Source: an uncultured Lachnospiraceae bacterium
Lineage (GTDB): Bacteria; Bacillota; Clostridia; Lachnospirales; Lachnospiraceae
Direction of reading: 5' to 3'
DNA length: 33,748 bases
Assembly (NCBI GenBank): GCA_946623875.1
Contig: CAMORO010000022.1
Coordinates: 1 to 33,748, forward strand
Below are positions 3,826-30,960 of this stretch, in pieces. A program made the translations under genes and the position numbers. The first letter of the stretch is position 1. The number at the start of each line of letters is the position of its first letter. The notes beneath the pieces are model-generated. The model was not told where the DNA came from. It saw nothing but the letters and a program-made list of their open reading frames with translations, and ran no database searches.

Positions 3826-3867
3826 TCATCTTATCCTTCCCGCACTGTACTTCATACCTATTAAATT

Positions 3868-3894: not shown

Positions 3895-3908
3895 GGTCAA
3901 TCTAAAAA

Positions 3909-3935: not shown

Positions 3936-3974
3936 CAAATGTTTTATTAGCTTTCACTAATCTGTTTTCGATGA

Positions 3975-4550: not shown

Positions 4551-4588
4551 CTCTGCCCTCCTGTGCTTACAAATATACCTCAATTGTA

Positions 4589-4744: not shown

Positions 4745-4758
4745 CAATCGAGGTGCGT

Positions 4759-7588: not shown

Positions 7589-7755
7589 ACAGCTACCTCC
7601 TCCCGAAGGATCCATCTATTTCAAAATTATCCTGAAAGATAATGCTACAATAATATAGTCTATATGAAATATCTCAGCCTGTCTTTTTGCGCAATTATAC
7701 AAATAAAATACTATCATGAAACAGTCAAAAATTCAATTTTATTACAATAATAAGA

Positions 7756-13157: not shown

Positions 13158-14894
13158 TTAATCCCAGCTTATTACTTCTTCCTCTGTTTCGCCTGACGGT
13201 TCATCCACTGCTTCTTCGGATGACTCTTCCTCTGATTCAATGCCGTACCTCTTGCGCGACTCTTCCAGAAGTTTTTTAGCATCTCCTCTGCCTGCCGATT
13301 CCGCAAGCGTGCATGTTATGTTTATCTTCCATTTATCCTCGTTATCGATATAGTCATACCCGGTATAGTCAACATCCTCAAACGTCTCCTCATCCATAAG
13401 CCTGCGTATGAATTTGTTTATCTGCTCAACCTCTGATGCTTTGGCAGTTATGGACAGCGATCCGTTTTTGGCATCAAAGGCACCGAACTCAATATCGGCA
13501 TAGCCGGCCGCACATGTCCTGAACACCTGTATGACATCCGTATTCCCACAAGGGAAAGTCAGTATATCTTCATCTATCTCATTTATCGCTTTGTATTGTG
13601 CAGATAGGAATTCAGTCCTTTCCTTAAGCGAATCAAACAGCGCCGTATCCATCATTACATCGGGACGCTCATTATACTCATTAAGCGCATCAAGTTCTTT
13701 ATTCTTACCGGATTTCACAATATACATGGCTATAAAAACAACAGCCATAATGATGAAAACAATAAAGGCAGGAATGAAAAGCCTGAGTGTTTCATTGATA
13801 CCCTTACTTCCCTTACCGCTCTTCTTATGATGAATGGTCTTCTGAAGGAAATCCTGTGTCTTATATGTTCCGTAAAGACCGCTGACCGTATGCAGATACT
13901 TCTGAAGTTCGGGATCCGCCGATGCCGCTCCCGTAGGTGTATACAGTGATACCGGTGCTTCCGTTCCCTGTGATTCTATGGCGTTGGCATACATAGCCAT
14001 ATCGTCCGGGTTTATTCCCGCTATTTCTATCCCTTCAAGTACCGCATCACTTTGATTGGACTTAAGGAACTGGACAAGCTGGCTTATTGTTCTTGCCACA
14101 TCATCGGCATATTCGGGAGTTCCCTGATCAAAAAAGCAGCGTACAGTATTCCCGTAATTAAATGAACCGTTGACCCAGAGTATCGTAGTAAGCGTCATCG
14201 CATCGGCAACGAGAAGGACGAAGGTTCTTCGCCTTTTTGCCGAAGTTGCTCCGCACAGGGTTATAAGATTACTTCCATCCGAATATATGGCAGATAACTT
14301 AAGACCGGCTCTTGTGAAAAGTTCCACACAGTCATTTACGTAATCGTAATCAACACCTTCAACATACAGTCTGTTCAGCCTTGCCTTGGCAGTGACTTTC
14401 TTATCTTCCACAGACTTAACAGCTTTAGCTTTGGATGCCGCCTTAGCCTGTTTCACTTTTTTAGTACCTTTTTTCTTATCTGCGGATACCTGTTTATCCG
14501 GAACAGGAGCTTTCACCTCAGAAGAGGTCTCAGCCTTACCGATCGGAATATATGAGAATATCTGGTCTGCATCCTCACGACCGACTTCGGCGAACTCGCG
14601 TCCTATAAATTCATATGTACTCTTCTCATTTAATACAGGTAATTCGAGCGTACGTCCTACGAACTTCGTACTGTTGATGACCAGTATTACGTCCTTTGTC
14701 GGAAGCTTAGCTTCACTCCATGCTTTGGATATGAATTCGACAAAGGCATCCTCGTTCATTACCACACCATTTATGACGCTGCCTTCCGGAGCCTCCAGGG
14801 TAAGATAACGCCTGACGGATGCGAGACCCTTTCCGGTCCTGTTTCCTTCTATTACCTGTATCTGCTGATTGGCCAGATATATTACTGTACTCAT
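13158..14894 (-). CDS. PilM-PilN fusion protein
   Basis: 578 residues. The N-terminal two thirds (about 1-350) are a PilM-type actin-like fold (MSTVIYLANQQIQVIEG start; LYVEGVDYDYVNDCVELFTRAGLKL; an FVLLVADAMTLTTILW strand pair). One transmembrane helix at 371-393 (LFIPAFIVFIIMAVVFIAMYIV) and a membrane-distal domain (about 394-550) then match PilN. So two proteins that are normally separate are one polypeptide. A lysine/alanine-rich insertion at about 130-172 interrupts the PilM part, and the C-terminus is acidic (EEESSEEAVDEPSGETEEE). The start at 14894 is set by GAGAGG 6 bases upstream; the ATG at 14927 overlaps the pilC stop and lacks an RBS. It should link cytoplasmic PilB/PilC to PilO across the membrane. 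Confidence 0.85.
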   Translation of the reverse strand: MSTVIYLANQQIQVIEGNRTGKGLASVRRYLTLEAPEGSVINGVVMNEDAFVEFISKAWSEAKLPTKDVILVINSTKFVGRTLELPVLNEKSTYEFIGREFAEVGREDADQIFSYIPIGKAETSSEVKAPVPDKQVSADKKKGTKKVKQAKAASKAKAVKSVEDKKVTAKARLNRLYVEGVDYDYVNDCVELFTRAGLKLSAIYSDGSNLITLCGATSAKRRRTFVLLVADAMTLTTILWVNGSFNYGNTVRCFFDQGTPEYADDVARTISQLVQFLKSNQSDAVLEGIEIAGINPDDMAMYANAIESQGTEAPVSLYTPTGAASADPELQKYLHTVSGLYGTYKTQDFLQKTIHHKKSGKGSKGINETLRLFIPAFIVFIIMAVVFIAMYIVKSGKNKELDALNEYNERPDVMMDTALFDSLKERTEFLSAQYKAINEIDEDILTFPCGNTDVIQVFRTCAAGYADIEFGAFDAKNGSLSITAKASEVEQINKFIRRLMDEETFEDVDYTGYDYIDNEDKWKINITCTLAESAGRGDAKKLLEESRKRYGIESEEESSEEAVDEPSGETEEEVISWD

Positions 14895-14923
14895 GTTTAT
14901 CCTCTCAAGGTAATTATTTGTCC

Positions 14924-16120
14924 TCACTGCCCCGCTATCGCGTTATATGAACCGTAGATAGGCTGGATAACGGATATCATTATAAAACCGACGACCGTTG
15001 CCATCACAACTATCATAACCGGCTCCAGATAGGAAACCATTCTGTTAAGAGCCATTTCAGAATCGTACTCCATCTGATTGGCTACAGAGGTCAGCATACT
15101 GTCAAGCGCACCGGTCTCCTCTCCTACCATTATAGTCGAAACAAGTTTTTTCGTGAATCCGTCAACTTTATTTATTGCATCGGAAAGCTTCTCGCCGGCA
15201 CGGATATCAAGAATAACCTGTTCAAACTGTTTCTCGATATATGAATTGCCTATCGTATTCTTGGCTATTACCATACAGTTGGATATTGATATGCCCGCTG
15301 AATAAAGACTTGATAATGTACGGGCAAAACGTGCGGTGTAAATGACTTTGCGAAGATATCCTATCTTGGGAAGCCTAAGTTCCATCTTATCGCGCCATAT
15401 CCTGATATCCGGAATGGAAAAAAGAAGCTTAAAGACTATATAAATAATGATACCGATAAGCCCCAGAACATACCATTTACTCTTGACATAATTACTTATG
15501 GCAAGAAGGATACGGGTACTTACGGGCAGGGAAGGCATGGTTTCAAACAGGCTCTCGAACTGCGGGATAACATATCCCATGATTATCGCAACAACGATCA
15601 CGATAAGCACACTTAGGAGCTTGGGATAAGTCATGGAGCTCTTAACCTTCTGATTCATCCTGTGATCCTTGTCGTAATATACCGCCATCTGCATTGCGAT
15701 ACCGTCTATATCACCCGTCTCCTCAGCAGATCTGAGCATGTTTATAAGAAGCGGAGGGAATGCTCCGCCCTGTGCTTCCATCGCATCCGACAGGGCAGTA
15801 CCTGTCAGTACCATCTTAAGAATATTGGAATAAAGTGCTCTGATATTAGGCTTATACGCCTCATCCTCTGACATGATCCTGAGTGACCTTACCATGGATA
15901 CGCCGGCACCGATAAGTTCACCTAAATTCCGGCAGAATTCCGATAACGCATCACTCTTAAGCTTCTTGGTCCTGACTTCCTTTATTTCCTCCTTGGAAGA
16001 GATAAGGAACTTGTTATCGGACTTAAGCTTATTGTGCAGTTCACGCTCGTCAACCGCCTGCATCCTGCCGGTTACTGTCTTGCCGTTTTCGTCTTTTGCC
16101 ACATACTTGTAAGCTGCCAT
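14924..16120 (-). CDS. pilC: Type IV pilus inner-membrane platform protein PilC (GspF family)
   Basis: 398 residues, the standard length. Two GspF domains are visible, each with the SAEETGDIDG / VGEETGALDS signature (131-140 and 332-341). Three transmembrane segments lie at about 168-188, 217-237 and 366-388. The N-terminal YKYVAKDENGKTVTGRM strand-turn is typical. It forms the membrane platform that PilB turns to add pilins. First gene of the pilC-pilMN-pilO-pilB unit, with a sigma-D-type promoter 73 bases upstream. The downstream gene starts 29 bases after its stop. Confidence 0.96.
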   Translation of the reverse strand: MAAYKYVAKDENGKTVTGRMQAVDERELHNKLKSDNKFLISSKEEIKEVRTKKLKSDALSEFCRNLGELIGAGVSMVRSLRIMSEDEAYKPNIRALYSNILKMVLTGTALSDAMEAQGGAFPPLLINMLRSAEETGDIDGIAMQMAVYYDKDHRMNQKVKSSMTYPKLLSVLIVIVVAIIMGYVIPQFESLFETMPSLPVSTRILLAISNYVKSKWYVLGLIGIIIYIVFKLLFSIPDIRIWRDKMELRLPKIGYLRKVIYTARFARTLSSLYSAGISISNCMVIAKNTIGNSYIEKQFEQVILDIRAGEKLSDAINKVDGFTKKLVSTIMVGEETGALDSMLTSVANQMEYDSEMALNRMVSYLEPVMIVVMATVVGFIMISVIQPIYGSYNAIAGQ

Positions 16121-16290: not shown

Positions 16291-16944
16291 TCAGGTCCAT
16301 CCGGTATATGGATCGTATTTCGGTGCCCTTATATAGTATTCCGAAGTATATTCACCGTATTTTCCGCTCTCTATGGTCAGTCTCATATACACAACATTGG
16401 GTTCATAAGTACCTCTTCTTTCAGCCATGGCAAAAGTTATATCTTTGATCTTATAACCAATATAGGCTTTCTCATCGAATTTCCATTCATGTACTTCATA
16501 TTCGTCGGGAATCTCATTGTATTTTATGACCAGAAAGCCGTTTTCATCCACACCGATCTCTACCGCAACCTCATTTCCGTCCTTAAGCAGTATGTGGTCA
16601 TCTCCACCTACCAGAAATCCTTTGTCAAAGCCATTGCTCTCAAGTTCGGTTCTTTCCTCATCCCGGAGCTTATACACATAGTTATAATCGGTTACAATAA
16701 GTGTAGAATCTTCGATCACTCCTCTCACTCTCGCTGCGATCATATCATTGACCTGCATCCCGAATGCCGCTCCCTGTGTTTCATGATAGAGCGTTACGGT
16801 ATAGCTGATCATTCTCGTAACCGCAACAAGAAAGATCCCCAAGAGTGCAAATGTTGTTACCATTTCCACTAATGTAAAACCCCTGTTATCAGCAAGGCTC
16901 TTATTCCCTTTATTTACTTGTTTACGTCTTAAAGATCCGACCAA
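16291..16944 (-). CDS. Minor pilin, PilW/GspJ type
   Basis: 217 residues. 22-residue leader ending SLADNRG, then FTLVEMVTTFALLGIFLVAVTRMI with Glu at +5 and a long helix continuing into SYTVTLYHETQG, as in PilW/GspJ pseudopilins. No cysteines in the C-terminal half; ends ...APKYDPYTGWT. The start is a TTG at 16944 with GGAGG 8 bases upstream; no ATG lies nearby. 15 bases after the PilV-type gene and last of the operon headed by the giant prepilin. Expected to be part of the tip complex that primes pilus assembly. Confidence 0.82.
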   Translation of the reverse strand: MVGSLRRKQVNKGNKSLADNRGFTLVEMVTTFALLGIFLVAVTRMISYTVTLYHETQGAAFGMQVNDMIAARVRGVIEDSTLIVTDYNYVYKLRDEERTELESNGFDKGFLVGGDDHILLKDGNEVAVEIGVDENGFLVIKYNEIPDEYEVHEWKFDEKAYIGYKIKDITFAMAERRGTYEPNVVYMRLTIESGKYGEYTSEYYIRAPKYDPYTGWT

Positions 16945-16959
16945 AACAAAAGCCTCCGA

Positions 16960-17526
16960 TCAATTAGTTATCTTGTTAAATACAATAAAATTAGTCGTTG
17001 AAAGATCTCCAAGCTGAGCCTTCTCATCATCCGTGACCCAATCCGAAATGTTTATCTGCACAAAGTTCTTACCCATTGTCACCGAATCCGAATTGTTAAA
17101 GCCCGGACTTCCGGTCATTGTGGCCTTATTTGGAAATACATTATCCAATGCATCTCCCGAAGATGGCGAATATACAGCTCTGCCGCCACTAAAGCTCTGC
17201 CTGATCAGTGCAATGTTATATATGCCGGTATCATTACCGCCTTCATCCTTCACAGGTTCGACCCGGTACACCGGCAGATATTCAGTAACGGTCTCGTCAA
17301 TGCCTCTGGCTGAAGCGTTGTTCTTCACATCATAGAATTCCTTCGTATATATGATTCTCTGCAATACCTCCTGAGCTCTCCTCTGGTCGGCAGCCTGCAT
17401 ATACATTCTTTTCGAAAATGCTATAATGCCACTGAGAAGACCCATGATTATTGCAAGAATGACAAAGGCCATCAATACCTCTGTCATCGTCATTCCTCTG
17501 TTGTCATCCTTCAATTTCATGCACAT
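16960..17526 (-). CDS. Minor pilin, PilV/GspI type
   Basis: 188 residues. Short 11-residue leader MCMKLKDDNRG, then MTMTEVLMAFVILAIIMGLLSGIIAFSKRMY: methionine replaces phenylalanine at mature position 1 while Glu at +5 is kept, which is common in PilV/GspI. The RAQEVLQRIIYTKEFYDVKN stretch after the helix is typical of the family. Starts 9 bases after the PilX-type gene, so translationally close. The start could instead be the in-frame ATG two codons later. Likely a tip-complex subunit. Confidence 0.82.
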   Translation of the reverse strand: MCMKLKDDNRGMTMTEVLMAFVILAIIMGLLSGIIAFSKRMYMQAADQRRAQEVLQRIIYTKEFYDVKNNASARGIDETVTEYLPVYRVEPVKDEGGNDTGIYNIALIRQSFSGGRAVYSPSSGDALDNVFPNKATMTGSPGFNNSDSVTMGKNFVQINISDWVTDDEKAQLGDLSTTNFIVFNKITN

Positions 17527-17535
17527 ACGATCCGC

Positions 17536-18138
17536 CTATCTTTTTACATTCATCCTGTAATTGTTGTGTATTGTATATGATCGACTATCATCCATCCTGT
17601 ATCCCTCTCCATCCCTGTAGGGAATTCCTTTCATGCATTTGATCGTAATATCCAGATTTCTTGAAACAGACACCGTACCGTCTCCACCCATTGCCAGACT
17701 TGCTTCGGTTTCGGTATCATCGTTCAATTCATATCCGACAGTCAGATATACACAATAATTACCCATACTGTTATCATCGCCGTAATCATTATCATAATAA
17801 ATCATGAGATTCAACTCATTTGAATAATCCTCATGTTTATTCTTTTTAACCTGCTCTTTCCTGATCTCCGTATCGATGTACTTACTCAGGGATGAATTCG
17901 ATTCAGCCGAATTCAGTTCGGATTTAAGCGCATTTTCAAATGACTCGGCCGCTACCCTGAGCTGAAGGTCTGAAGTATCGGCTGATACCTGAGCATACAG
18001 ATTGTAACTGACCATAAGCAGCATAAGGCAAAACACCATTGCCACAGTACCTGCGATCAGCGCATAGATAAGGGCTACGCCTTCATTATTCAGTTGTAAT
18101 CTCTTAAGGCGTTTCGCCCTTTCTATTGCTGTTTTCAA
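17536..18138 (-). CDS. Minor pilin, PilX/GspK type
   Basis: 200 residues. Basic 20-residue leader ending LNNEG, then VALIYALIAGTVAMVFCLMLLMVSYNLYAQ. Valine at +1, no Glu at +5, and the VALxxAL pattern are typical of PilX/GspK, the subunit that caps the pseudopilus. The rest is polar and acidic with no recognised domain. It follows the giant prepilin by 42 bases and lacks a clear ribosome binding site, so it may depend on translation of its huge upstream neighbour. Confidence 0.75.
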   Translation of the reverse strand: MKTAIERAKRLKRLQLNNEGVALIYALIAGTVAMVFCLMLLMVSYNLYAQVSADTSDLQLRVAAESFENALKSELNSAESNSSLSKYIDTEIRKEQVKKNKHEDYSNELNLMIYYDNDYGDDNSMGNYCVYLTVGYELNDDTETEASLAMGGDGTVSVSRNLDITIKCMKGIPYRDGEGYRMDDSRSYTIHNNYRMNVKR

Positions 18139-18180: not shown

Positions 18181-21100
18181 TTATTCTTCCTTATTCTCAT
18201 CCTTCTTCCCTGTTTCGCTCTCCCCGGGCACATCAGCTTCGTCAGGTGCCTGTGTGGGAGCCGGGACTGCAGTAGGAGCAGGTGTGGTTATCGCCGGTGT
18301 CGGAACAGGCGTTACAGCCGAAGCTGTAGTCGGTGTCGGAACCGGTGCTTTTGTCGGCGCCGGAGTCGGAGCTTCTGTCGGAGTCGGAGCTTTGGTCGGT
18401 ACGGCAGTTACGCCTGTCACTCCTGCAGGTGTTGGAATTACAAGTAAGATATCATTGTCTGATGAATCATCAATAAGGATATCCTCTTCCGTTCCATCGA
18501 TCATCCGGGCATCACCGTTACCTGTTTCATTTCCGCTTCCATCTTCAATAATGATCACATCCGAAGAACCCGTACCGGTAATATCAGTTGTCCCGGGATC
18601 AACACTTTGCGTTGTAAGTCCTTCTTCATCTTCCAACGGCTTCCTTATATACGGCAGATGGATCCACCTGTAGTTGATACTCTCTCCCGCAGCATCCTGA
18701 TCGCTCCATCTTGAATCTACATTCGTTTCACTTATTGCCTTTAAGGTTACCTTGATCCATTTACCCGCAAATCGAGCACCATATCCATCAGCCTCATCAC
18801 CAAGGATTATTTGTACCTTATCGCCATCCGAAACGAAATCGAGCACCAACGGAACATCCTTTTCATTGAGTACGGTGTCTGCATCCTCCTTCCATTTCTG
18901 ATAGGAATCTGCTATTACTTTAGTCCTTTCATTCATTCTTTCAGCCGCCTGTATTTCATCCTCATCCTCCTTTGCAGGAAGCTCAAGATCATCAGGCGCA
19001 CTGTTATATACTGCTATTGCCGCATTTACACTGACGGATGTATCATCGAAGTAATTGGTACTGTCAGCCGAATCCTCACCTGTCTTATAACTGATCCACA
19101 GACCCTGTTTCCACGTCTCGTAGTCCACAACATTGTATTCATCCCCGGAAACTACCGTCACTTCATTGGCTGATACGGAATCCCCTGTTACGGTCATCAG
19201 CTTCTCACTTGTTATATCGTCATATTCGGGCATACCGTTTTCACTGTCAACAACCAGCTTCATGACATCAGGAGCATGCAGCGCATTGGTAACAGTTAAT
19301 TCAAACGGAACTCCGTCTTCACCCTCACTGTAAGTGCCGGCATGCTTCTTAGGTATTGCCCTAACCGAAACATTAACTATATCTCCGTCGTAGAAATCGC
19401 TGAAGTCAAGATCAACACTTCGGTCGTATTCACTTCTGTCTTCGCCACCCTTTATGTAATTAGCCGATACCGTATCAACTATCTGAAGGATCCCACCCTC
19501 TTCAAGCGACTCTGTATTCAGCTCATAGGATGCTTCCTCAGCTTCATCATCTTTCTCCTCAACGAAATAGTAATGCGTCTTAGCCTGTTCACCCTCCTTT
19601 TGTGATTCTACAAGGTCTGCCGTGATCAGATAACCGCCAAGCTCATTAAGCTCATCAGGATTGGTAAGACCCGTCCATGAAACGGTGTAATCAAGACCCC
19701 CATCATAGGATCCGCTCTCCACATCTGCCTTTATACGTACATCATGAGGCATATCAAGGGTTGTGAACGGGATCATGGGGTTCAGATCAAACTCCTTATA
19801 CTTAGGCGTCCTGTAATAACACATATTCTCATCTTCATCTACAGAATCGATGTCATCATACGGTGTGTCGTAATACAGAACACCTATATGACCGCCGGGT
19901 GTAGCATCTTCTCCTATTCCCATCTTAACGCCATCTCGATCAGTCACTCCTTCAAGCTGACTGTACAGACTTCCATTGTTGGTTATCCTGATCTTATATT
20001 TATCGTATACCCAATCGGCTCCTTCCGTAAATGTCGCCTTGTACACCCACTTTTTATATTTTGGAACCTCAACCGGCTTTCCGTTAATCTCAAACCCGTT
20101 ACCATAAGAATCTTTAGGCTGATACAGTATTGATGTATATGCATCCTCTACCGGCACTTTCTGTTCTGCTTTTATATTCTGTGAAGCAAGCTTAACCTCT
20201 GTACCGTCTTCTGTGATTCCGAGAAGATCAACAGTATAATCTGCATTCCTGTAGTACATTAAATAGTACGCATTCATTATCGCCTTACGCTTATTATCCT
20301 GATTTTCATCATCATCTGGTATCTCATAATATCCTGTCTTACCGGTAAACGCAGTCCAGGTATTCGCAACATACTTATCGTCACCGTCATCCGGATCTTT
20401 GTGATAAGGATCATAGTACTCGTATGCCTCCATTGCTGCTGCATTATCCGGTACAAGCGGATTAAGTTTTGCTCTGTTCCACGTCTCCTCATTGCGATAG
20501 AATTCGTCCCACTTAACCGTATATGTAGTATTCCCGTCCGCATCCTTACTCTCTATTATACCTCCTGCCAATATAGGTTCAGGTGATGTATCCTGATATA
20601 TTCTGCTCGAATACTTGTCATTAGTCCTTGAGAACTGATAACTTTCATTATAATTAGTTCCCACTGTATGACGCTTACCATCTTCATCGGGTTCAAGTTG
20701 TATTGTACGGTGATCAATAGCGCGTATTCCATTGGTACTTACCGTCTCAGTCTCGTCGCTATTCTCGTATTCTATCAGAGTAGAGTTAACCGTGGTATCA
20801 TATACCTTATACACTACATCAAAGAGGTAATATTCATATGGATTGCCATACCGATCAGACTCACCCTCCTCAATAGCATTATTCTTTGCAAGCATCAATG
20901 TGGAATTGAAGTAAATACCATATGTTTCACTTCCATCATCTGTATTCTCCTTATAAAGAACATATCCGGGCTTAAGATCATTGGTTTCATCATCCCATAT
21001 GGATCTGTCTTCCTCCACTTCAACACAATATGTTTCTATATACTCCTTTCCTTTGCTGGTTTTGAATATAGTGATCTCTCCTGATTCTTTCGCCGCCTCT

Positions 21101-24100
21101 GTAGCATCCCAGTCTATTGTCAGATAATACGGATCTTTGTACTGCTTAAGTATCTCCTTATTGGCTTCAGCCGAACCTCCGTCCAGTTTAATTCCGGTAG
21201 CTATTGTACGTCCGTACTTAACTATATCATTCTCAGATCTGTCAAGGTAATTACGCACAAGGAGTTCCGTTGGATTCTCTCCTGAGAACCATTCTTTCGG
21301 AATATTCCCAAGGGATGTTATATAATCCGATGACCTTAGATTAGATCCTATATGTGCCTCATTAGTTGTAACAGCCACCCACATTTCAAGATCTTCATCA
21401 TACACGGAAATATCTGACCTCATCCATGCGTCACGGTCTCTGACATCGCTATATTGGATTATATACTCCATATGCTCAACATCATCGCCTTTAAAACCAC
21501 GCAAACGCTTATGATAATTGTATGGGAAGTAAGTCTGTCCCCTGTATTTCTCATATTCTTCATTGTCAAAGGAGGAATCTCCGTTTACAAGCTCCTCACA
21601 GTCAGCCAGATGACCGGAACTCACTATTTCTTCCGATTCGGCATAGCTGTCATATATTCCCTCATTGGGTACTGCCTTTGCCTTTATCTGTGCCATCCTG
21701 CTGTCTTCATCATCAAGCTCCACCCACTTACTCATGGTAGAGAATCTGCTGTCCTTAACATTGATCACAAAGCTGTCACGCCTCTCCCTGGCAATATCTA
21801 TACCTCTTGCGTTGTAAGAAACCTCTATCCAGCAATCAATATAACCCTCTGTTCCATCTGCATAAGTGATCCTGTAATCATCCCTGTTATCGAGCACCGC
21901 TACCATGTTGTTGTCATCGGTAAGCTCAAGATGAACCTTTGGTGCCGGAAGCACCTTCTTACTTATTTGCTTTGTGAGTATGGACGGATTCGAGTCATAG
22001 CGTGTATCCCCGTCTGCTTCATACCTAAAGCCGTTCACTGCAACAACGCTGAAAATAATATCGCATCCGTTCCACTCGGCACGGTTGTTTATCATATATG
22101 ACAATGTTTCTTGTCCCAACAGCAATGTATTGCCCTGTTCTATCACAGCATTAGCATTGCCGTGCTCTGTTACCTTATAGGAAACCTCATAAGCATACGC
22201 ATCCAGAACCGCATCCCAGCCAAACGTCAGATAACCGCTCTCTTTGATCATCCTAAGGTTCCCGGGCGAATCGAGTTTTTCTTTAAATACATACTTCTTT
22301 TTTATAAATTCCATAAACTTAGGGTCGAGTTCCCTATATACGCTTATACGCCCGTTAATTCCCTTGGAAACAGACTCCTCATACACACTGTTGTCACTAT
22401 AGTACTTAACGTTCCCGGGGTCATTGGCTTCCATATTGAAGCCTCTGGAACGATCAAATCTGTAATACACATAAGGTGCTGATTCACTGTTACTGTAATC
22501 CAGTTCAAGCTTGTTATTTATCTCTTCGTTCATTACGCGAGAAATGCCTTCATATGTTGTTGCCGGAGCCATCAGACATTCCTGACTCTCTCCTCTCGGA
22601 ATTATATAAAATCCCCGTAATGTAAATCTGTCATCCAGATAACCGCTTCCCGTCGAACCGCCGCTTCTCCTATAAATATCCCCCAATGTTATATCGATCT
22701 GACTTATACTCTTCTCGAGATAGTTCTGCACGTCTATCTCAAACCTTGAAGATTTTTTGGACGTATTGACGGTTACCCAGTAATTATCTTTATCTAACGG
22801 TATATATTCAGCTGTTCCGGTATAAGCTGCCGGAACTCTCTGTCTCATATCGTTATCACCATAAATGATCGCCTGATATTTATACTTGTATTCATATGTT
22901 TTTTCCTGTGGCGCTCCCGTGTAGAATACTATTTTATCTATGCCCTTAAAATCACTGTCTTTGTTGACAATTATACTTATTGTGGCATCATTGCCTTTGG
23001 TACCTGATTTGCGCAGATAAAATGTTTCATTATCTAACCAGTCTATTCCGAGAACATCTGTCGGATATGAATCTGATATATTATGTTCTCCGTTTCCGGT
23101 TGCCATTGAAAAATGATCATTTACGCCTTCCCCCTCAAAGGACGCTACCGTAAAATCCGCACCATATTTTTCAGACAGATATGTACACTGATACTCTGAA
23201 CCATCGTTCTCCGGCGTCCATGTAAATCCTCTGAAATATATATATTTGTCTGTTTCTTCGTCAGAAATATCTTCGTCACTTCCGGTAGCATCGATATATT
23301 TCATATAAACTACCACTCTTCTTATCTTTTTATCCAAACCTGAAGGAACAGGGAAAACCACCTCTGAACTCTTAAGGTCAGAACCTGCCTCCACCGTTCT
23401 GACTTCCGTTGTACCGACTTTATTATTGTAATCGACAAACTTAGCGCTTACTTCGTAATGATATCTGATATCGGACACATAATTCCTGTAATTCCACATA
23501 TATACATTGAAGGCTGACATACCGGGACTGTCCGGACCATAGCTGACATCAAATTCGTAAGCCGCCTCTCCGCTATTATCTCCATTATACATACCGGTAA
23601 GCTGATTCGGAGGCGTCAAAAACAGTCCGGGCGATTTAACACTGGTATAACTTGTCCCGGATCCTACATACCGTATATTTCCTTTTGCCCGTGAAAATGT
23701 AAAATACGTATCGAGCTCATCAGTTTCATATACAGTATCATTATTTATATAATAACATTCCCGCATTGAGACCTCATCACCCCGATTTGTCAAAAAAGGA
23801 GAATACTTTCTGTTCTTTGTGATGAGCGCACTGTCATCAAAACAGTTTGTGAAGCTTTCCGAAGCCATCCTGTTGGATGTGCCTATGAAGCCTTCAGTTG
23901 TATCCTTTATCGGATTATAATTCCTGCATGTGTCAAAATGCCAATAACATCTGTATTCCTTTAAGTTGGCAAATCCTCCGCCCACAAAGCTGCCGACATT
24001 TTGGGCTATGGTATCAATATCCGGATCATCGCCCTCCTTCCAGTTTTTTTCAATGATCCCTGTATTAACACAGTCATAAAGATAAATATGCTCTTCTCCG

Positions 24101-27100
24101 TTTGTGTCATTATAGCTTCCAAGCATGCCTCCTGCCGCACTGCTGCTGTGTCTGCTTTTTCCATCCCACGTATTTCTGGGAAGATGTACCCATCCATGAT
24201 TGATACATGAGGTAAAATAGCTGCTTGCATTAAGCATATAGCTGGATCCGATGATGCCGCCCGCATCATCATACTCCGATCTTATTTCGCCGTAATTCTC
24301 ACAGTCAGCAAAATCAAACCCTGCATATCTGACGGTTCCCACAATTCCGCCGGCTGCCGAATAAGCCGTCACATCGCCGAAGCCTTCTTTTTTGGGACTT
24401 CCGTTTCCGTAATAATATACATGATCAAAGGTCACTCTTCCTCCGTTTGAAGGAATGCAGGCCGCAACAACACCGCCACCGTAGACATCACCATGGTAGC
24501 GTGCCTGAACAAAGGTCTTGCTCTTAATATACTGTATCGTCCCTCCGGAATGATCAACGCCTATGACTCCTCCTGCTCCGCTTCCGGTCTCTGACCCATG
24601 CATGGCAACCTCAGTCTTGCCGGCTCCGCAGGTAGTCATATATCTCTCTGTCCCGTCAGCTCTTACATAACCGCCTACACTTCCGCTCTCATTAAGACCT
24701 ACAATACCTCCGACAGTTCCGTTGAAGCCGATCACTCCGACGTAATCCGTGGTATTAAGATGATTGGATGTTGTATCTTCATACAATCCATCCATATCTA
24801 TTTCCCTGACGGTTCCGTAATTCTTACCGACAAAACCGCCCAGATATGAATATGCATTCATATCCGGATTCCAGCTGTAATCCCTTCCGTAGAAATCACC
24901 TGATGCTATCCATGTGGTGTTTCCACTGTCTGACTTTTCAAAGCCGTCATTATGACCGGTTACACCCACGCCGCAGAACTCAACGACTCCGTTGCTTCTG
25001 TTGATCCCCGCAATACCTCCGGTTGCAGTAGGATTCGCCGCATCACCGAAGGTATTCATTACGCCGTCATAGGTACAATAGCTGATCGTACCGTAGTTAT
25101 TTCCCGCTACGCCGCCGTAACCTATATTGTTATTCCCTTTACCGCCGGTTATCTCTGCATCAACGGATATATTCTTTATTATCCTGTTGTTGATTCCGGC
25201 CACTCCGCCAATAGAAGCGCAGTCACACCCATCCATCTTTATCTTTGGATTAACCCACGCCCTCTTTGTACTTGATTCTCCCGTGATCGTACCTGTATTT
25301 GAACCTGCGATACCACCTGCATTTGTGTAATTACTCTTAACCGTAATATTACAGTTGATTATCCTGTCCAGACTGTTCTCTGCATCATCGGTTCCCGCAA
25401 GTTCAATATAACCGTATTTATTCCTGTGTTCTTCATTGTCCCAGTCATACTCTCCCGTATGTACCGAATCCTTCACAGGGAATATATTCTGTCCTACAAC
25501 TGCTCCAAGGTAGGCGTACTCGTACCCGCTCTCGTTCATAACATCTACATTGGCAATATATATTCCTTTTATCTTTCCGTAATTTCTTGCTGCCAATGCG
25601 CCGCATGCAGTCTTTGATCTGAATACTATGTTTCCTCCGATACCGACGGGTTTTTCAACGTAATTATTGTACAGTTCTCCATTTTCCTGATTAATGGCAA
25701 CAATACCGCCGCTCATGCCGTTGACAGCCGTTACTGTCGCGTAGTCATGACAGTTGCTTATGATACCGTTATTCTCAGCTATTATTCCGCCGGAATTGCC
25801 CGACAGAGGAGACGAAACACTGCCGTAATTCTTACAGTAAGCAATGTTTGACCTTCCGTCCGTACGACCCACTATTCCGCCTGCCGTTCCCTTGTCGGCA
25901 ATAACTTCAGACGAATTCATAAGACCCTGCAGCAGATAGTACTCTGCCTCTTCGTCTGTATTTGCCACTATGTCATTTCTTCCGATGAAACCGCCCACTA
26001 CAGATGCACCTCTGACACTGCCCGAACAGTTCAGATAGCTTGCATCTGCCGGTTCCGATTCCAAAGTGCCGGATGCTATTTTGGTATTCTTAAGCCTGCC
26101 CTTGTTAACTCCTGCAATGCCTCCCACATAGCTTCCTGTCGAGATTACATCTATATCTTCAATATTATCCTCAAGTTCGATGATGCCTGTCTCTCCGTTA
26201 ACACCTGCGTAGGTTCCCGCAACACCATCGCCTGTGCCCATGGCGCGGATGTGGGATTTATTTATGTTGTTATTACGGAGGGTTCCGTAATTCTCGGCAA
26301 CAAGACCACCGACAACATTCCTGCCGCTGATCGTCTTATTGTCTATACTGCATTCCCTGATACTGCCCTTGTTAAGACCGCACAGACCACCGACGTAATC
26401 ATGTGTACTGTATCCAAGGTTAGCTACCGAACAGTTGTACAATGTTCCGTTATTTACTTCGCAGAGACCGCCAAGATATGTTCCTGTTGTGTTTATAAGT
26501 CCCTGCTGTGCATTACGGCAGTTGTTAAGAGTGGTACGGCTGCCGACTCTTCCTATGATACCGCCTCCGTAAGAATAGGTGAAAACAACCTCTTCGCCCT
26601 TATAATCATTGGGATATGAATTGTTCCTGATTACCCTTTCTTCGGAAGCTGCTATTGCCTTAGTTGCTTTGACAGGTGTTGAATTCTCCACATCTTCGAT
26701 GTAAAGGAAGGTATTCTCATCATTGTAGCCCATTACTCCGCCGACAAACAATTCACCGGTAACAGAGTTTAATATCGATACCTCTCCGCCTCTCTGACCC
26801 TTAATATACACTCTCATGTATGAATCGTCCCCTGAGGCTGTATTTACAGGCTTAAGTCCTTCAATGGATGTTAAGGTTTCATTCGTCAGATTATCAAGTA
26901 TCATCTTATTTGAAGCCAGATCACCTTTACTCATGGTGTCAGCCAGATAGTCAGCAACGATACGTGTAGCATATTTACTCTCATCATAACCGGGCGCACT
27001 GCTTAAATCCGTTGTTTTATTGTCAATTATGAGGTTATATCCGATATATCCGCCTACAAATTCCTTACCGGTCAGCCTTCTGAAGAAACCGGTCGATCCG

Positions 27101-30100
27101 AATGAACCGGCAACTATATTTGTTACACTCCTGTTTTCCTGCTTATTAAGGATATTTCCTCCTATATCCCCACCGACGAAATAATCGCCTGTTACAACAT
27201 CCGCATTCGAATAAATAGTATGTGAAGCCTTGTACCGGTTCTTATCTTCTTCATCGGAGTTGTCTGATGCCGGATCCATAAGAAGTCCTACAGCACTGTT
27301 TAATCCGGCATAACCACCGACAAAGCTGCTTCCTGTTCCTCCGTACACGTAACCTTTGCCTACTGAATAGTCTTCAATTATGGAATCCGAATCATTGTAT
27401 CCTACGATACCTCCAAGGAAGTTGTTACCTCTTACATAGCATGAAGCTTCAATGACTCTTCCCGTATCCGCAGAAGTGTCAACCTCACTTGTCTTCCCGT
27501 CTGCCGATACGGTTCTTACGGTATTGCCAATGATTCCGTTGTTATATCCCGAAATACCTCCGATGTAGTTTCCTTTATAATTAGCTTCGATCTCCGCAAT
27601 TATCGGTGTGTTTCCCGTCTGATAGAAGATACTGTTGTTATTGTACAGATAACCTGTATTATAGCCTGTTATTCCTCCGCTGTAATTGCCGCATGCATAT
27701 ACCTGAGCCTTGTTAACGAAATCGGTCACTTTATTCCTGAAATCACTGTCTTTAACGGGAACTATCCTGTAATCCCCGACTTCTCTTAATGACTGTATAG
27801 CTTCAGGATCGAAGCTGGTAATATCAGTATATGTTGTTCCGTTCAGATATTTGTAATCTGCATTGGCTCCCACTATTCCGCCAACATAATTCTTTCCTGC
27901 TACCTTATTCTCGTTCACACCCTTCGCAGGATCCTTACTTCTCTCGTTGGCAGCCACATTACCGCCAAGATATCCTCTGTTGAAGCCTGCAATACCGCCG
28001 ACGTAACTCTTCCCGATAACATAGACTGACTCCTCTGTCTCAGGCTTGCTGTAACATCTGCTTATCTGCCCGCCGTAATTGTATCCGGCAATACCGCCGG
28101 AGGAATTACCTTCCACGTTATTGCCAAATACTTCCCCCGTGCTGAACATGGCTGATATTTCTTCCGCATCGTATGCAGCAGCTCCGTTACAGTCATCTAT
28201 GACAATGTGAGAAACAACCGATCCGGCATCGGAAGGATCTTCGTAATACCGATCATAAACATAGCCGGCAATACCGCCGATATATGCTATATCATCGCCG
28301 GTTATCCTATTGCTTCCGGTTCCTTTCGTTGCGGTTTTAACCGTACCATAATTGGTACAATTTGTTACAAGGAAATCAACATCCCTGTTTCCGTTGACTA
28401 TCTCTTCTGCTATCTCTTCTGCTGTTTCCCGCCCTGTATCTTTTCCAAAGCCAAAGCCTGTGAACAGAGCAGCCAGTTCATCATCTGTCAGCCCTCCATT
28501 TTCATCCTCTCCTTCATACATACCCTTTATAAATGCATAATCATTTCTGACAGCGCCTGCTATTCCACCGACTGCCTGCGCTCCGATAACCGTTGCTCGG
28601 TTAACAAGGTTTTCCATAATCTCAACATCGGAAAGAGCCTGGTCGCTTCCGGTCTTCATGCTGTAAACTGTTCTCTCTTTAGCATGAAGTCCGGAGGGAA
28701 GTACAATACCTGCCATACCACCCACATATTTACGCCCTTCCACCTTGCAGTTATCAGTAAGAGTAAGGTTTACAGCTTCACAGGCATTAACGCCAAAGAA
28801 TCCACCGGTGAAATCACCGCCGGATACAGTAGCCCGGTCAAGCGTAATATTCCTGACCGTACCATAGTTACAATTTATGAATCCCGTAGGATGAAACGCG
28901 CTATACTCCCTGCCGTCTTCCTCGTCATATCTGATATTTATGTTCGAGATCACACTGTTACCGTTACCCGAGAGTACGTCATTTGCCCTGAGTCTTACCA
29001 TACCGGGATATTCATCCGCATTGGATATTACACTCTTCTCTTTTCCTTCCTCAACTGTCTCTCCGGTTTTTTCCTGCTTAAGTCCTATACGATAGGGTAC
29101 GACATCAACATCATCCGTATACAGAGCATTCCATTTGATATCATTTCTTATGTTGAAGCTGACTGAAGCAACGTCCGCATGTCCTGACCCTGCCGTTCCC
29201 TCACCGTTCTTTTTGATCACTATATCCTGCTTATCGTAATCAAGAGCCTCTATATACCTCATGTTATACAGGTGTCTGGTTCTCGTAACGGAATAGGAAT
29301 GCCTGTTTACGATCCTGTATTCATCCGAAGCATCTTTCTTCTCTTCTTTACTTGTGGAATTTCCGCTGTCGGCAAAGCAGGTATTCTCCTTGTTATTTCT
29401 AAGAAAATCTATATTGTCTTTTGGTTCCGGACTCCTGTATTTTGTTGAATTACCTCCTTCAACCTTAACAAACACGTCATCAGGGGCAAGTCCGAACCTG
29501 AAAAAGCTCTGTGTACCCATGAAGCTGTTACTCTCCTCGGGGATTACAGAATCCTGTGCTTTGCCGTAATTTTCCGGACTTTCATAATACTTCTGCACTT
29601 CATCATTGTATGCCCTGTAGCTTTCCTGCGTCGCCGTAAGATCGATCATATCCAGTATTACGTGGATCATGGGCACCTGCGAACTGAGAGTGTTTATATA
29701 ATTCCCGTTATGATCCGTTGCTTCCGACCATACTATCATGGGTACATAACCAAGTTCCACTCCGTTGCTGAGTTCTCCGCAGCCTATTTCCTGAACTCTT
29801 TTGGTTCCCCCTTTCCCGCTCTCATATGCAAGATCATATCTTTTTACTTTACAAAGGACAGGTTCAATACCTTCAGGTCCGTATAACACGCTGTCTCTGT
29901 TTTTTATCTTGCTTCCCTCAATCTCAATAACAAGCTCAGGCTTATTATCCTTATCAGCATCCAGAAGAGAAAGCGTATAATTCATCTGATTAACAGCTTC
30001 GGGCTCTTTGCTGATAATGAAGGTTGCGTACAAAGCCTCCTTGTTGTGAAGTGTTACTTCGTCAATAACGGGCTGTTTCCGGTTTGCTGTGGTCGTAGCC

Positions 30101-30960
30101 TTATACAGTGCTTCAACATCATAGTATCCAACCTTTCGTCCCCGTCTTATATCCTCAGTACGGTTGTTCTTTGTTACATCAAAAATACTGCCTGTATCCG
30201 CGTCGGGTTCCCCGGTGCTTCCGGCATATGTATACCTTTCATTTTTATCACTGTAGAAAACAGAAAAAACCTGTCCGTCGGCAGGTGTGAATTCGATACA
30301 TATTGCTGCATTATTGAGTATTGACGGATCATAAATATATGATGACAGCAGCTCATATACCCAGTACTGTTCATCATTTTTTGTAAAACCGTTATTTAAA
30401 TATGTGCTGTAATCTCCCTTGCCTGCACGTATGCTTATTATCCTGTCCTGGTATTTCTCCTCCGACTTACTGTTTTCCCAGATACTGTTTATCTCTTCCC
30501 TTGTATAACCGGACTCAACGAAGTGTTCGTTTGACGAATCCCCGTCATATACTTTCCAGTTCTTGCCTACGCCGAACTCGACCCTGTTTCCGTTAACGCT
30601 TCTGAGCCTGCTGATAACATCCATATCATCTTCAGTACTTCCGCCGGCTTTGTTGAAGTCAGGCTTCAGTGCCTTCTGCATCGCTTCCAGCCGGCCGCTC
30701 GCACTGTAATCATTCAACTGATTCTGGGCAGCAACAAAGAGAGTCTCGGCGTATTCGTTCTCACGATTGAAATCAGCCCAGTCTCTCCATGCAAGTATCC
30801 CGCCAACTGTGAGGCCTGCCATTATCGCTATTAATACCATAACGACTATCAGCTCAACCAGAGTGAAACCTCTGTTGTCCTTCACTTTCCGTGTTTTGCT
30901 GTTCTGTATTCTGTTTAAACTTATATCATCAATACGATGCACTCTGCCTGTTCTTCTCAT
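18181..30960 (-). CDS. Giant GLUG-repeat prepilin, putative pilus-tip adhesin
   Basis: 4259 residues, roughly 470 kDa, 38% of the window. N-terminus: 31-residue basic leader ending KDNRG, then FTLVELIVVMVLIAIMAGLTVGGIL (Glu at +5), a true class III prepilin signal, followed by a pilin-like helix (RENEYAETLFVAAQNQLNDY). Residues about 690-2370 hold some 38 GLUG-type repeats (VGGIAGxNxGxIxNC pattern; PF07581), expected to form a long beta-solenoid. Residues about 2370-4150 are beta-sandwich-like; one part (PGNLRMIKESGYLTFGWDAV, about 2898) looks fibronectin-III-like, as do later strand-rich units near 3463 and 3738. The last 85 residues are Pro/Thr/Ala-rich and end KKDENKEE, with no LPXTG and no second membrane helix. 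Heads an operon with three minor pilins. No frameshift, so the gene is under selection. Adhesion is inferred. Confidence 0.9.
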   Translation of the reverse strand: MRRTGRVHRIDDISLNRIQNSKTRKVKDNRGFTLVELIVVMVLIAIMAGLTVGGILAWRDWADFNRENEYAETLFVAAQNQLNDYSASGRLEAMQKALKPDFNKAGGSTEDDMDVISRLRSVNGNRVEFGVGKNWKVYDGDSSNEHFVESGYTREEINSIWENSKSEEKYQDRIISIRAGKGDYSTYLNNGFTKNDEQYWVYELLSSYIYDPSILNNAAICIEFTPADGQVFSVFYSDKNERYTYAGSTGEPDADTGSIFDVTKNNRTEDIRRGRKVGYYDVEALYKATTTANRKQPVIDEVTLHNKEALYATFIISKEPEAVNQMNYTLSLLDADKDNKPELVIEIEGSKIKNRDSVLYGPEGIEPVLCKVKRYDLAYESGKGGTKRVQEIGCGELSNGVELGYVPMIVWSEATDHNGNYINTLSSQVPMIHVILDMIDLTATQESYRAYNDEVQKYYESPENYGKAQDSVIPEESNSFMGTQSFFRFGLAPDDVFVKVEGGNSTKYRSPEPKDNIDFLRNNKENTCFADSGNSTSKEEKKDASDEYRIVNRHSYSVTRTRHLYNMRYIEALDYDKQDIVIKKNGEGTAGSGHADVASVSFNIRNDIKWNALYTDDVDVVPYRIGLKQEKTGETVEEGKEKSVISNADEYPGMVRLRANDVLSGNGNSVISNINIRYDEEDGREYSAFHPTGFINCNYGTVRNITLDRATVSGGDFTGGFFGVNACEAVNLTLTDNCKVEGRKYVGGMAGIVLPSGLHAKERTVYSMKTGSDQALSDVEIMENLVNRATVIGAQAVGGIAGAVRNDYAFIKGMYEGEDENGGLTDDELAALFTGFGFGKDTGRETAEEIAEEIVNGNRDVDFLVTNCTNYGTVKTATKGTGSNRITGDDIAYIGGIAGYVYDRYYEDPSDAGSVVSHIVIDDCNGAAAYDAEEISAMFSTGEVFGNNVEGNSSGGIAGYNYGGQISRCYSKPETEESVYVIGKSYVGGIAGFNRGYLGGNVAANERSKDPAKGVNENKVAGKNYVGGIVGANADYKYLNGTTYTDITSFDPEAIQSLREVGDYRIVPVKDSDFRNKVTDFVNKAQVYACGNYSGGITGYNTGYLYNNNSIFYQTGNTPIIAEIEANYKGNYIGGISGYNNGIIGNTVRTVSADGKTSEVDTSADTGRVIEASCYVRGNNFLGGIVGYNDSDSIIEDYSVGKGYVYGGTGSSFVGGYAGLNSAVGLLMDPASDNSDEEDKNRYKASHTIYSNADVVTGDYFVGGDIGGNILNKQENRSVTNIVAGSFGSTGFFRRLTGKEFVGGYIGYNLIIDNKTTDLSSAPGYDESKYATRIVADYLADTMSKGDLASNKMILDNLTNETLTSIEGLKPVNTASGDDSYMRVYIKGQRGGEVSILNSVTGELFVGGVMGYNDENTFLYIEDVENSTPVKATKAIAASEERVIRNNSYPNDYKGEEVVFTYSYGGGIIGRVGSRTTLNNCRNAQQGLINTTGTYLGGLCEVNNGTLYNCSVANLGYSTHDYVGGLCGLNKGSIRECSIDNKTISGRNVVGGLVAENYGTLRNNNINKSHIRAMGTGDGVAGTYAGVNGETGIIELEDNIEDIDVISTGSYVGGIAGVNKGRLKNTKIASGTLESEPADASYLNCSGSVRGASVVGGFIGRNDIVANTDEEAEYYLLQGLMNSSEVIADKGTAGGIVGRTDGRSNIAYCKNYGSVSSPLSGNSGGIIAENNGIISNCHDYATVTAVNGMSGGIVAINQENGELYNNYVEKPVGIGGNIVFRSKTACGALAARNYGKIKGIYIANVDVMNESGYEYAYLGAVVGQNIFPVKDSVHTGEYDWDNEEHRNKYGYIELAGTDDAENSLDRIINCNITVKSNYTNAGGIAGSNTGTITGESSTKRAWVNPKIKMDGCDCASIGGVAGINNRIIKNISVDAEITGGKGNNNIGYGGVAGNNYGTISYCTYDGVMNTFGDAANPTATGGIAGINRSNGVVEFCGVGVTGHNDGFEKSDSGNTTWIASGDFYGRDYSWNPDMNAYSYLGGFVGKNYGTVREIDMDGLYEDTTSNHLNTTDYVGVIGFNGTVGGIVGLNESGSVGGYVRADGTERYMTTCGAGKTEVAMHGSETGSGAGGVIGVDHSGGTIQYIKSKTFVQARYHGDVYGGGVVAACIPSNGGRVTFDHVYYYGNGSPKKEGFGDVTAYSAAGGIVGTVRYAGFDFADCENYGEIRSEYDDAGGIIGSSYMLNASSYFTSCINHGWVHLPRNTWDGKSRHSSSAAGGMLGSYNDTNGEEHIYLYDCVNTGIIEKNWKEGDDPDIDTIAQNVGSFVGGGFANLKEYRCYWHFDTCRNYNPIKDTTEGFIGTSNRMASESFTNCFDDSALITKNRKYSPFLTNRGDEVSMRECYYINNDTVYETDELDTYFTFSRAKGNIRYVGSGTSYTSVKSPGLFLTPPNQLTGMYNGDNSGEAAYEFDVSYGPDSPGMSAFNVYMWNYRNYVSDIRYHYEVSAKFVDYNNKVGTTEVRTVEAGSDLKSSEVVFPVPSGLDKKIRRVVVYMKYIDATGSDEDISDEETDKYIYFRGFTWTPENDGSEYQCTYLSEKYGADFTVASFEGEGVNDHFSMATGNGEHNISDSYPTDVLGIDWLDNETFYLRKSGTKGNDATISIIVNKDSDFKGIDKIVFYTGAPQEKTYEYKYKYQAIIYGDNDMRQRVPAAYTGTAEYIPLDKDNYWVTVNTSKKSSRFEIDVQNYLEKSISQIDITLGDIYRRSGGSTGSGYLDDRFTLRGFYIIPRGESQECLMAPATTYEGISRVMNEEINNKLELDYSNSESAPYVYYRFDRSRGFNMEANDPGNVKYYSDNSVYEESVSKGINGRISVYRELDPKFMEFIKKKYVFKEKLDSPGNLRMIKESGYLTFGWDAVLDAYAYEVSYKVTEHGNANAVIEQGNTLLLGQETLSYMINNRAEWNGCDIIFSVVAVNGFRYEADGDTRYDSNPSILTKQISKKVLPAPKVHLELTDDNNMVAVLDNRDDYRITYADGTEGYIDCWIEVSYNARGIDIARERRDSFVINVKDSRFSTMSKWVELDDEDSRMAQIKAKAVPNEGIYDSYAESEEIVSSGHLADCEELVNGDSSFDNEEYEKYRGQTYFPYNYHKRLRGFKGDDVEHMEYIIQYSDVRDRDAWMRSDISVYDEDLEMWVAVTTNEAHIGSNLRSSDYITSLGNIPKEWFSGENPTELLVRNYLDRSENDIVKYGRTIATGIKLDGGSAEANKEILKQYKDPYYLTIDWDATEAAKESGEITIFKTSKGKEYIETYCVEVEEDRSIWDDETNDLKPGYVLYKENTDDGSETYGIYFNSTLMLAKNNAIEEGESDRYGNPYEYYLFDVVYKVYDTTVNSTLIEYENSDETETVSTNGIRAIDHRTIQLEPDEDGKRHTVGTNYNESYQFSRTNDKYSSRIYQDTSPEPILAGGIIESKDADGNTTYTVKWDEFYRNEETWNRAKLNPLVPDNAAAMEAYEYYDPYHKDPDDGDDKYVANTWTAFTGKTGYYEIPDDDENQDNKRKAIMNAYYLMYYRNADYTVDLLGITEDGTEVKLASQNIKAEQKVPVEDAYTSILYQPKDSYGNGFEINGKPVEVPKYKKWVYKATFTEGADWVYDKYKIRITNNGSLYSQLEGVTDRDGVKMGIGEDATPGGHIGVLYYDTPYDDIDSVDEDENMCYYRTPKYKEFDLNPMIPFTTLDMPHDVRIKADVESGSYDGGLDYTVSWTGLTNPDELNELGGYLITADLVESQKEGEQAKTHYYFVEEKDDEAEEASYELNTESLEEGGILQIVDTVSANYIKGGEDRSEYDRSVDLDFSDFYDGDIVNVSVRAIPKKHAGTYSEGEDGVPFELTVTNALHAPDVMKLVVDSENGMPEYDDITSEKLMTVTGDSVSANEVTVVSGDEYNVVDYETWKQGLWISYKTGEDSADSTNYFDDTSVSVNAAIAVYNSAPDDLELPAKEDEDEIQAAERMNERTKVIADSYQKWKEDADTVLNEKDVPLVLDFVSDGDKVQIILGDEADGYGARFAGKWIKVTLKAISETNVDSRWSDQDAAGESINYRWIHLPYIRKPLEDEEGLTTQSVDPGTTDITGTGSSDVIIIEDGSGNETGNGDARMIDGTEEDILIDDSSDNDILLVIPTPAGVTGVTAVPTKAPTPTEAPTPAPTKAPVPTPTTASAVTPVPTPAITTPAPTAVPAPTQAPDEADVPGESETGKKDENKEE
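18200..18440 (-). repeat. Low-complexity region coding the Pro/Thr-rich tail
   Basis: Repeating GGAGTCGGAGCTTCTGTC-like units on the plus strand encode PTKAPTPTEAPTPAPTKAP-type sequence. Such short repeats tend to vary in number between strains and often carry O-linked sugars when secreted. Confidence 0.7.

Follow-up and report, generated by a model that had tools for sequence, protein, structure and literature searches.

A giant modular prepilin in the putative H position of a type IV pilus locus from Lachnospiraceae

What kind of protein begins like a type IV pilin and then continues for more than four thousand residues? The question is raised by one gene of an uncultured Lachnospiraceae bacterium (assembly GCA_946623875.1, contig CAMORO010000022.1). 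The window analyzed here is a stretch of 33,748 nucleotides of this contig, and a direct read of its minus strand gave a single unbroken frame of 4,259 codons at 18181..30960, exactly the extent reported in an earlier sequence-only reading, which had suggested that the product is possibly a giant adhesin at the tip of a type IV pilus (T4P). The encoded protein, hereafter the giant, is 468.8 kDa with a computed pI of 4.5. The answer we favor, and consider fairly probable, is that it is a modular minor pilin in the H (GspH/FimU) position, which would display, at or close to the tip of the pilus, a region for binding that varies between lineages.

The N terminus has the hallmarks of a type IV prepilin, with a hydrophilic leader ending in Gly, about 20 hydrophobic residues and Glu at mature position 5 (Glu5). 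The class III signal reads KVKDNRG/FTLVELIVVMVLIAIMAGL, and the motif predicts that prepilin peptidase cleaves after G31, ahead of F32. Both Pfam N_methyl (28.8 bits, cut-off 21.2; E 8e-7) and NCBIfam TIGR02532 (25 bits, cut-off 16.3) recognize this region, which upholds the earlier assignment as a prepilin. An in-frame GTG at residue 26 (position 30885), just preceded by GGAAA, could provide an alternative start and a 6-residue leader. As the sequence-only reading had also stated, a motif scan of the protein found no LPxTG-like sequence and a hydropathy scan found no second or C-terminal membrane-spanning segment (the best 19-residue value past residue 70 is 1.5). The giant therefore lacks both features of a sortase-anchored adhesin, the LPxTG-type motif and the C-terminal hydrophobic stretch, and the pilin helix would be its only anchor in vivo.

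The place of the gene among pilus genes is conserved. To describe gene order among giants, as opposed to their prevalence, we used the window and 20 loci picked for long frames, a set of 21 in which G184, with a tandem pair, is counted once. The giant is followed by a K-like and an I-like gene in 18 of the 21 loci (the I-like genes of L048, L053, L056, L057 and L058 were read by eye), and a J-like gene comes next in 17 of these 18, the fetched stretch of L043 ending before J. The I, J and K genes expected beside a GspH/FimU gene are found alongside the giant in these 18 loci, J of L043 excepted. In the K-like protein, position 5 is not Glu in any of 29 distinct loci (L052 by eye), where L081/G012, L088/G180, L067/G036, L063/G086, L084/G148 and L086/G052 were taken as the same genomes and none was counted twice. 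This fits a published trait, since the K subunit and PilA of Streptococcus sanguinis both lack Glu5 (PMC9934059). The I-like pilin has Ser in place of Glu5 in L049, L052, L114 and L098 (the last by eye), so that two tip pilins lack Glu5 in those four loci.

Three genomes carry the pilin module without any graft, as bare pilins of 213 (G172), 198 (G152) and 191 (G582) residues located directly before K, I and J. These bare forms are our clearest indication that the module makes up a whole pilin at the H position, onto which the other thousands of residues of the giant have been grafted. With bare forms on record and GLUG repeats, a motif that other surface proteins also carry, following the module, the giant has the composition of a modular pilin, a pilin module joined to a separate non-T4P domain. 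A further short frame, of 190 residues, was found in G644. We infer the H position from gene order and size, as opposed to a family score, and use the label "H-position" without claiming membership of the GspH family. There is good support for a modular minor pilin whose gene keeps a conserved place beside those of the pilus. The proposed tie to the pilus stands, with signal and repeats in one conserved T4P-linked family. We refine it in one respect: the giant appears to fill the slot of an H-type core minor pilin instead of being an additional pilin.

A frame of this length in a draft assembly (155 contigs, 83% complete) could in principle be an artefact, formed by chance or by a mis-assembly that joins a pilin gene to a gene for a surface protein. 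Independent genomes refute such a fusion. A collinear homologue in G086 aligns with 31.8% identity across 4,277 columns, and the complete Blautia parvula chromosome holds a giant in a 3,997-codon frame. In addition, comparison with the nearest relative, L060 (1,547 aligned codons covering the giant up to residue ~1,608, 67% identity), gave dN 0.25 and dS 1.62, a ratio of ~0.15, with dN 0.18 and dS 1.86 in the GLUG part; dS values this high are rough. The proximal ~1,600 residues of the giant are under purifying selection, and we rate the probability of an artefact as next to nil.

How widespread are such proteins? In a prevalence sample of 200 family-level genomes, the N-terminal 640 residues of the giant matched 51, many through the common pilin helix only, and a module profile without most of the helix matched 30. 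In 24 of the 30, the frame open at the match spans 1,400 residues or more, with a prepilin signal in 23 of these 24; the count of giants leaves out G126, which has no such signal. Giant prepilins that share this module were therefore found in 23 of 200 family genomes, with lengths of 1,542 to 4,537 residues plus one of 7,664. The other six module matches lie on frames of 200 to 867 residues. A class-level sample of 291 genomes gave nine matches, the window's own genome included, and giants of 2,035 to 2,780 residues in four genomes from outside the family.

A scan of named genomes added 31 loci with the pilin module. Twenty-one are labelled Lachnospiraceae, many with ruminant sample names, and the others include the complete B. 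parvula chromosome, Faecalicatena faecalis, Hespellia, Eubacterium sp. MSJ-21 and one Oscillospiraceae metagenome-assembled genome, so the homology of the module crosses genera. Consistent separation of the signal from the repeats in homologues would have spoken against the earlier reading; instead, the frame reaches 1,158 residues or more in 30 of the 31 loci, its end being set in most cases by the fetched stretch or the contig, and the prepilin signal is visible in 28 of the 30 (L065 and L087 begin inside the module). Full frames were checked for 16 named loci, and 15 span 1,594 to 4,449 codons, the 1,594 being ended by the contig. The sixteenth, L079, is also the 31st locus: it has both signal and module, its frame is broken by a gap in the assembly, and past the gap a different frame is open. 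We did not count L079 as a 321-residue stand-alone form, since a run of N and the contig end cut its frame.

Fusion to a giant graft is not a universal trait of the family, an idea that we rejected given the bare forms, mid-size forms of 483 to 862 residues and one membrane-anchored form. When the giant label is mapped onto a tree built from 46 modules, 6 changes are required, of which the starred branches force at least 5, and all of 500 label shuffles were as low, so the tree does not tell gain from loss of the giant form. Some loci hold more than one giant. L050 and L098 (G184:C36) form a tandem of 3,220 and 3,167 residues before one K-I-J set. Two others carry a second giant prepilin directly upstream of the GLUG giant (L041:2551-7629 and L042:8549-15211; 1,692 and 2,220 residues), with a major-pilin-type N terminus and BspA-type leucine-rich/DUF285 repeats; owing to their major-pilin-type module, L041:2551 and L042:8549 were left out of the module alignments, the coverage count and the tree. 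The longest frame, of 7,664 residues (L091/L092; G179:C19, ~310450-333540), is a prepilin with 92 GLUG-type cores, counted in two overlapping pieces. At its C-terminal end are domains of the NlpC/P60 (1e-15) and cell wall hydrolase (2.8e-14) types. The gene adjoins a T4P gene set with K-I-J, by eye, in a genome rated 7% contaminated.

The layout of the giant is given in Table 1. The carrier module consists of the hydrophobic helix with Glu5 followed by the motifs NEYAxTLFxAAQNQL, YxYDTSIL, ICIEFxPEDGQVFSVLYSD and GYYGVDTL, and a profile search of the PDB with this module returned mainly the generic N-terminal helix of known pilins, with PilE1 as the best match (1.9e-11). In the connecting region, R531, H532 and N535 (mature numbering) are invariant across 31 aligned sequences.

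Table 1. Features of the giant and of the neighboring genes, in window coordinates.
Feature	Position	Strand	Evidence
Leader peptide, residues 1-31, ends KDNRG	30868..30960	-	Sequence read; cleavage predicted from motif
Pilin (carrier) module, residues 32-420	29701..30867	-	Pfam N_methyl 8e-7 and alignments; C-terminal boundary approximate
Connecting region, residues 421-640, conserved RHLYNxRY from R562	29041..29700	-	31-sequence alignment
GLUG-type repeat stalk, residues 641-2360, probably solenoid	23881..29040	-	Core counts, HMM, relatives
Distal region, residues 2361-4140, no known family	18541..23880	-	Coverage, alignment, Pfam/PDB searches
Pro/Thr-rich acidic tail, residues 4141-4259, no sortase signal or membrane anchor	18184..18540	-	Sequence, motif/hydropathy scan
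K-like (PilX/GspK-position) minor pilin, 200 aa, mature N terminus VALIY, without Glu5	17536..18138	-	Alignment; no Pfam or NCBIfam match
I-like (PilV/GspI) minor pilin, 188 aa, Glu5	16960..17526	-	N_methyl 1.5e-5, sub-cut-off PilV/ComGE matches, gene order
J-like (PilW/GspJ) minor pilin, 217 aa, Glu5	16291..16944	-	N_methyl 6e-6, gene order
PilC/GspF platform protein	14924..16120	-	T2SSF 1.7e-50; GspF and PilC models sub-cut-off
PilM-like, possibly PilM-PilN fusion	13158..14927	-	TIGR01175 pilM 1.9e-5, sub-cut-off
PilO-like inner-membrane protein	12358..13095	-	T2SSM 0.008, sub-cut-off; same position in relatives by eye
PilB extension ATPase	10621..12309	-	T2SSE 3.7e-124, MshEN 3.4e-11; PilB model 3.6e-158, sub-cut-off
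P-loop ATPase, among the major-type prepilin genes	9420-10520	-	Above Pfam cut-off
Major-type prepilin, 178 aa	8676..9212	-	N_methyl over cut-off
AAA-ATPase-like/PD-(D/E)XK protein, among the major-type prepilin genes	5894-7615	-	8.8e-45 and 2e-12
P-loop ATPase, among the major-type prepilin genes	4753-5826	+	Sub-threshold
Four further major-type prepilins	3975-4583, 3094-3825, 2397-3068, 1068-1796		N_methyl above cut-off, each

Residues 641 to 2360 contain 33 GGxxG-type cores, where 1,000 shuffles averaged 3.4 and never gave more than 10, and a looser core motif matched 36 times over the whole giant, close to the roughly 38 repeats first reported. Among relatives, Pfam GLUG (PF07581) scored 94.1 bits in L101 and 21.4 bits in a C-terminal piece of L059, and three of four aligned stalks, that of the window included, matched it at E ≤0.5 (best 8.1e-5, in a relative). 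A hidden Markov model (HMM) built from the Pfam-certified repeats of L101 found 18 stretches above 3 bits in the giant, whereas shuffles averaged 0.01 such stretches and never exceeded 1, with 100 of 200 shuffles returning any score. Against the assignment, the two window pieces that matched Pfam GLUG missed its gathering score (14.6 and 13.3 bits, E 0.045 and 0.12, against a cut-off of 20.5), E was 0.22 for the window in the four-stalk comparison, and the whole-protein score of the L101 HMM (5.9 bits, E 0.21) did not exceed the best shuffle (6.4). We therefore apply the GLUG label to this stalk because of the number and spacing of the cores and because of the relatives. The stalk is probably a solenoid, since the repeats of PDB 3N6Z are described as distantly related to GLUG (PMC4021314).

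Conservation falls toward the C terminus. In a blastp coverage count against 23 other fetched giants, six of which have fewer than 2,400 mature residues, the mean number of giants per block was 16 to 20 over residues 32 to 1831, then 14.5, 12.7 and 9.6 up to residue 2431; blocks from 2432 to 4231 were covered by 3 to 7 of the 23. The drop is partly because the six shorter giants cannot reach this far. By this comparison, the carrier and the stalk recur widely among giants, and the far end is specific to particular lineages. These properties bear on the possibility that the giant is a receptor for DNA or an uptake tip, comparable to ComZ of Thermus, a modular pilin with a DNA-related role for its beta-solenoid module (PMC8179133), the GLUG stalk also being a probable solenoid. 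However, the giant is strongly acidic, and its pI argues against a large DNA-binding surface, while the variable distal end suggests varied ligands. We regard a DNA-uptake role as highly improbable.

The distal residues 2361 to 4140 align with five relatives at 23 to 31% identity, with no Pfam family above cut-off and no PDB sequence match. The beta-sandwich-like domains that had been described for residues 2370 to 4150 gain no backing for any fold from these searches. Some blocks look FN3-like by eye; with nothing above the Pfam or PDB cut-offs, we do not claim an FN3 or beta-sandwich fold. Could the distal region instead be an enzyme that acts on peptidoglycan, host protein or plant polymer? 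The hydrolase-ended relative in G179 shows a possible form of such a tip, and GLUG repeats are known from IgA proteases (PMC4021314). However, no enzyme family passed its cut-off in the distal 1,780 residues or in the five aligned relatives, the nearest being GH85_C (0.019, in two of the six sequences), and an enzyme-bearing tip is quite improbable for the window's protein.

Several observations weigh against a tip adhesin in the H position. K-I-J is not downstream of the giant in 3 of the 21 loci, being upstream in L054 and unseen within 20 kb in L055 and L059. The GspH model TIGR01708 reached 23.1 bits against a cut-off of 80 and matched the helix alone. The sole genus-mate sampled, G193, is 99% complete and has no match. 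The proposed binding part has no recognizable binding domain, and the selection test covered the giant up to residue ~1,608, where L060 ends. Searches of the 83%-complete window assembly with PF06750, PF01478 and a relative's peptidase found no T4P-type prepilin peptidase. Finally, in G126 (L122:9459-13751) the module and GLUG repeats follow a plain membrane segment that lacks a prepilin motif, and no pilus genes were recognized by eye in 9 kb upstream and 6 kb downstream, suggesting that the stalk can work off a pilus.

The last two observations also favor a different explanation, in which the giant is a surface protein that uses the pilin helix just for secretion or anchoring, as an unpolymerized pilin or pseudopilin, anchored in the membrane, whose GLUG stalk would extend across the wall. 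A folded chain of 470 kDa would, moreover, be hard to move through peptidoglycan on a filament. However, the prepilin motif with Glu5 occurs in every listed giant whose N terminus lies in the fetched stretch, the giant precedes K-I-J in 18 of the 21 loci, and bare pilins occupy the same slot. Weighing both sides, we consider a plain surface anchor unlikely.

The genes around the giant are consistent with a pilin assembled by a T4P machine. The window encodes PilB, PilC, a PilM-like protein, the K-I-J set and five major-type prepilins (Table 1), and PilT of the same genome is on contig 58 (L123, 4e-119), which makes retraction of the pilus possible. Read by eye, several relatives have a PilT-like gene immediately upstream of their giant, and in L044 this was confirmed by model. 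PilB has an MshE-type cyclic di-GMP (c-di-GMP) motif (NF053729, 45.7 bits against a cut-off of 38), so pilus extension may be under c-di-GMP control. All five of the relatives' loci tested have a peptidase with both A24 domains above cut-off near the giant or bare form. The sole PF01478 match in the window assembly is on contig 24 (L124), where a Tad-like set, recognized by eye near a flagellin-like gene, gave T2SSE and A24 peptidase matches. For PilY1, no Pfam match to PF05567 (the PilC/PilY1 C-terminal beta-propeller) was found in the giant, and a PilY1 search returned none of the 200 family genomes, with the control likewise silent.

We propose the following mechanism for the giant as an H-position minor pilin. 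Prepilin peptidase would cut after G31, and the pilin module would take the place of the H-type core minor pilin that is encoded with the K-, I- and J-like pilins. In published systems the H-I-J-K tip complex starts the filament and remains at its end, with H joining the complex to the major pilin (PMC9934059, PMC10191384). By analogy, the set in the window would prime assembly and stay at the tip, with the N-terminal helix of the giant packed into the top of the filament beneath K-I-J. Extension by PilB would then carry outward the GLUG stalk of ~1,700 residues and the lineage-variable distal region of ~1,800 residues. Monoderm bacteria have no outer-membrane secretin that such a chain would need to pass. 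We hypothesize that the distal region is the adhesive part and that PilT, encoded elsewhere in the genome, would pull the bound pilus back under load. The function that we propose as the best for the giant is that of an adhesin at the tip.

On a broader scale, we put at somewhat less than even odds the idea that Lachnospiraceae and some neighboring Clostridia maintain a standing class of giant H-position pilins, from ~1,500 to more than 7,600 residues, which would act at the pilus tip as covalent tool holders. In such a class, the carrier and the GLUG stalk would be conserved and might measure tens of nanometres, and the distal ends that they bear would be exchangeable and would bind or, with the wall hydrolases found once, cut. 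Such pilins would fill in monoderms the role that PilY1 has in diderms. If true, a family of pilins of ~170 to 800 kDa (as estimated from their lengths) in bacteria of gut and rumen would mean far greater cargo on a pilin subunit, and would raise the question of how a giant pilin is processed, loaded and passed through the wall. The hydrolase-ended giant of G179 adds another: might hydrolases open the wall for the pilus? Named isolates with giants, such as B. parvula NBRC 113351 and F. faecalis AGMB00832, offer systems for the study of tip display and of attachment to fibre or host.

A literature search, with most subscription papers outside its coverage, found no account of prepilins of this size, of the H-position family or of its spread in Lachnospiraceae. 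The entry IPR011493 is presumably the GLUG entry. Raynaud et al. 2021 list an architecture that joins a prepilin domain to IPR011493, termed M26 peptidase there, so a "prepilin plus GLUG" architecture is probably already in print; the accessible text contains no discussion of giant size, the H slot or a family (PMC8179133). The same survey counts more than 1,200 modular pilins in 264 architectures and names, as its most extreme multi-domain example, a protein of 860 residues (PMC8179133). The statement that minor pilins are normally under 300 residues, on which the sequence-only reading had leaned, overlooks such modular pilins of ~450 to 860 residues (PMC8179133, PMC9934059).

Among known systems, GspH/FimU shares with this family the slot beside K, I and J and the size of the bare forms, 191 to 213 residues. 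Known H pilins are small, unlike the giant. PilC/PilY1 of diderm T4aP resembles the function proposed here, as a very large, variable effector displayed at the tip, but it is not a pilin and is held by the minor-pilin complex, whereas the giant's graft is covalent. In monoderms PilY1 is reported to be absent (PMC9934059). The KilLMN proteins of Myxococcus belong to Tad pili, with different machinery and with grafts that are not GLUG-based. Their grafts are also far smaller than that of the giant. The resemblance is that they, too, form tip sets which can be interchanged and which end in a large modular pilin (PMC12075869). CofB of enterotoxigenic Escherichia coli belongs to type IVb pili and ComZ of Thermus to competence pili. 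Both have hundreds, not thousands, of residues. Like the giant, they are minor pilins with beta-rich grafts, and CofB is predicted to be at the tip (PMC8179133). The sticky end of a monoderm T4P has been worked out in S. sanguinis, whose modular pilins are ~50 kDa (PMC8179133, PMC9934059). PilB (454 residues processed, 50.5 kDa) and PilC (52.8 kDa) of that species carry a vWA module and Ig-like plus lectin modules, and share with the giant the class III signal, the pilin module, a large C-terminal graft, a monoderm T4P and a partner pilin without Glu5 (PMC8179133, PMC9934059). The giant differs from them in its ~4,230 mature residues, its GLUG repeats, its distal region of no known family and its H-K-I-J gene order.

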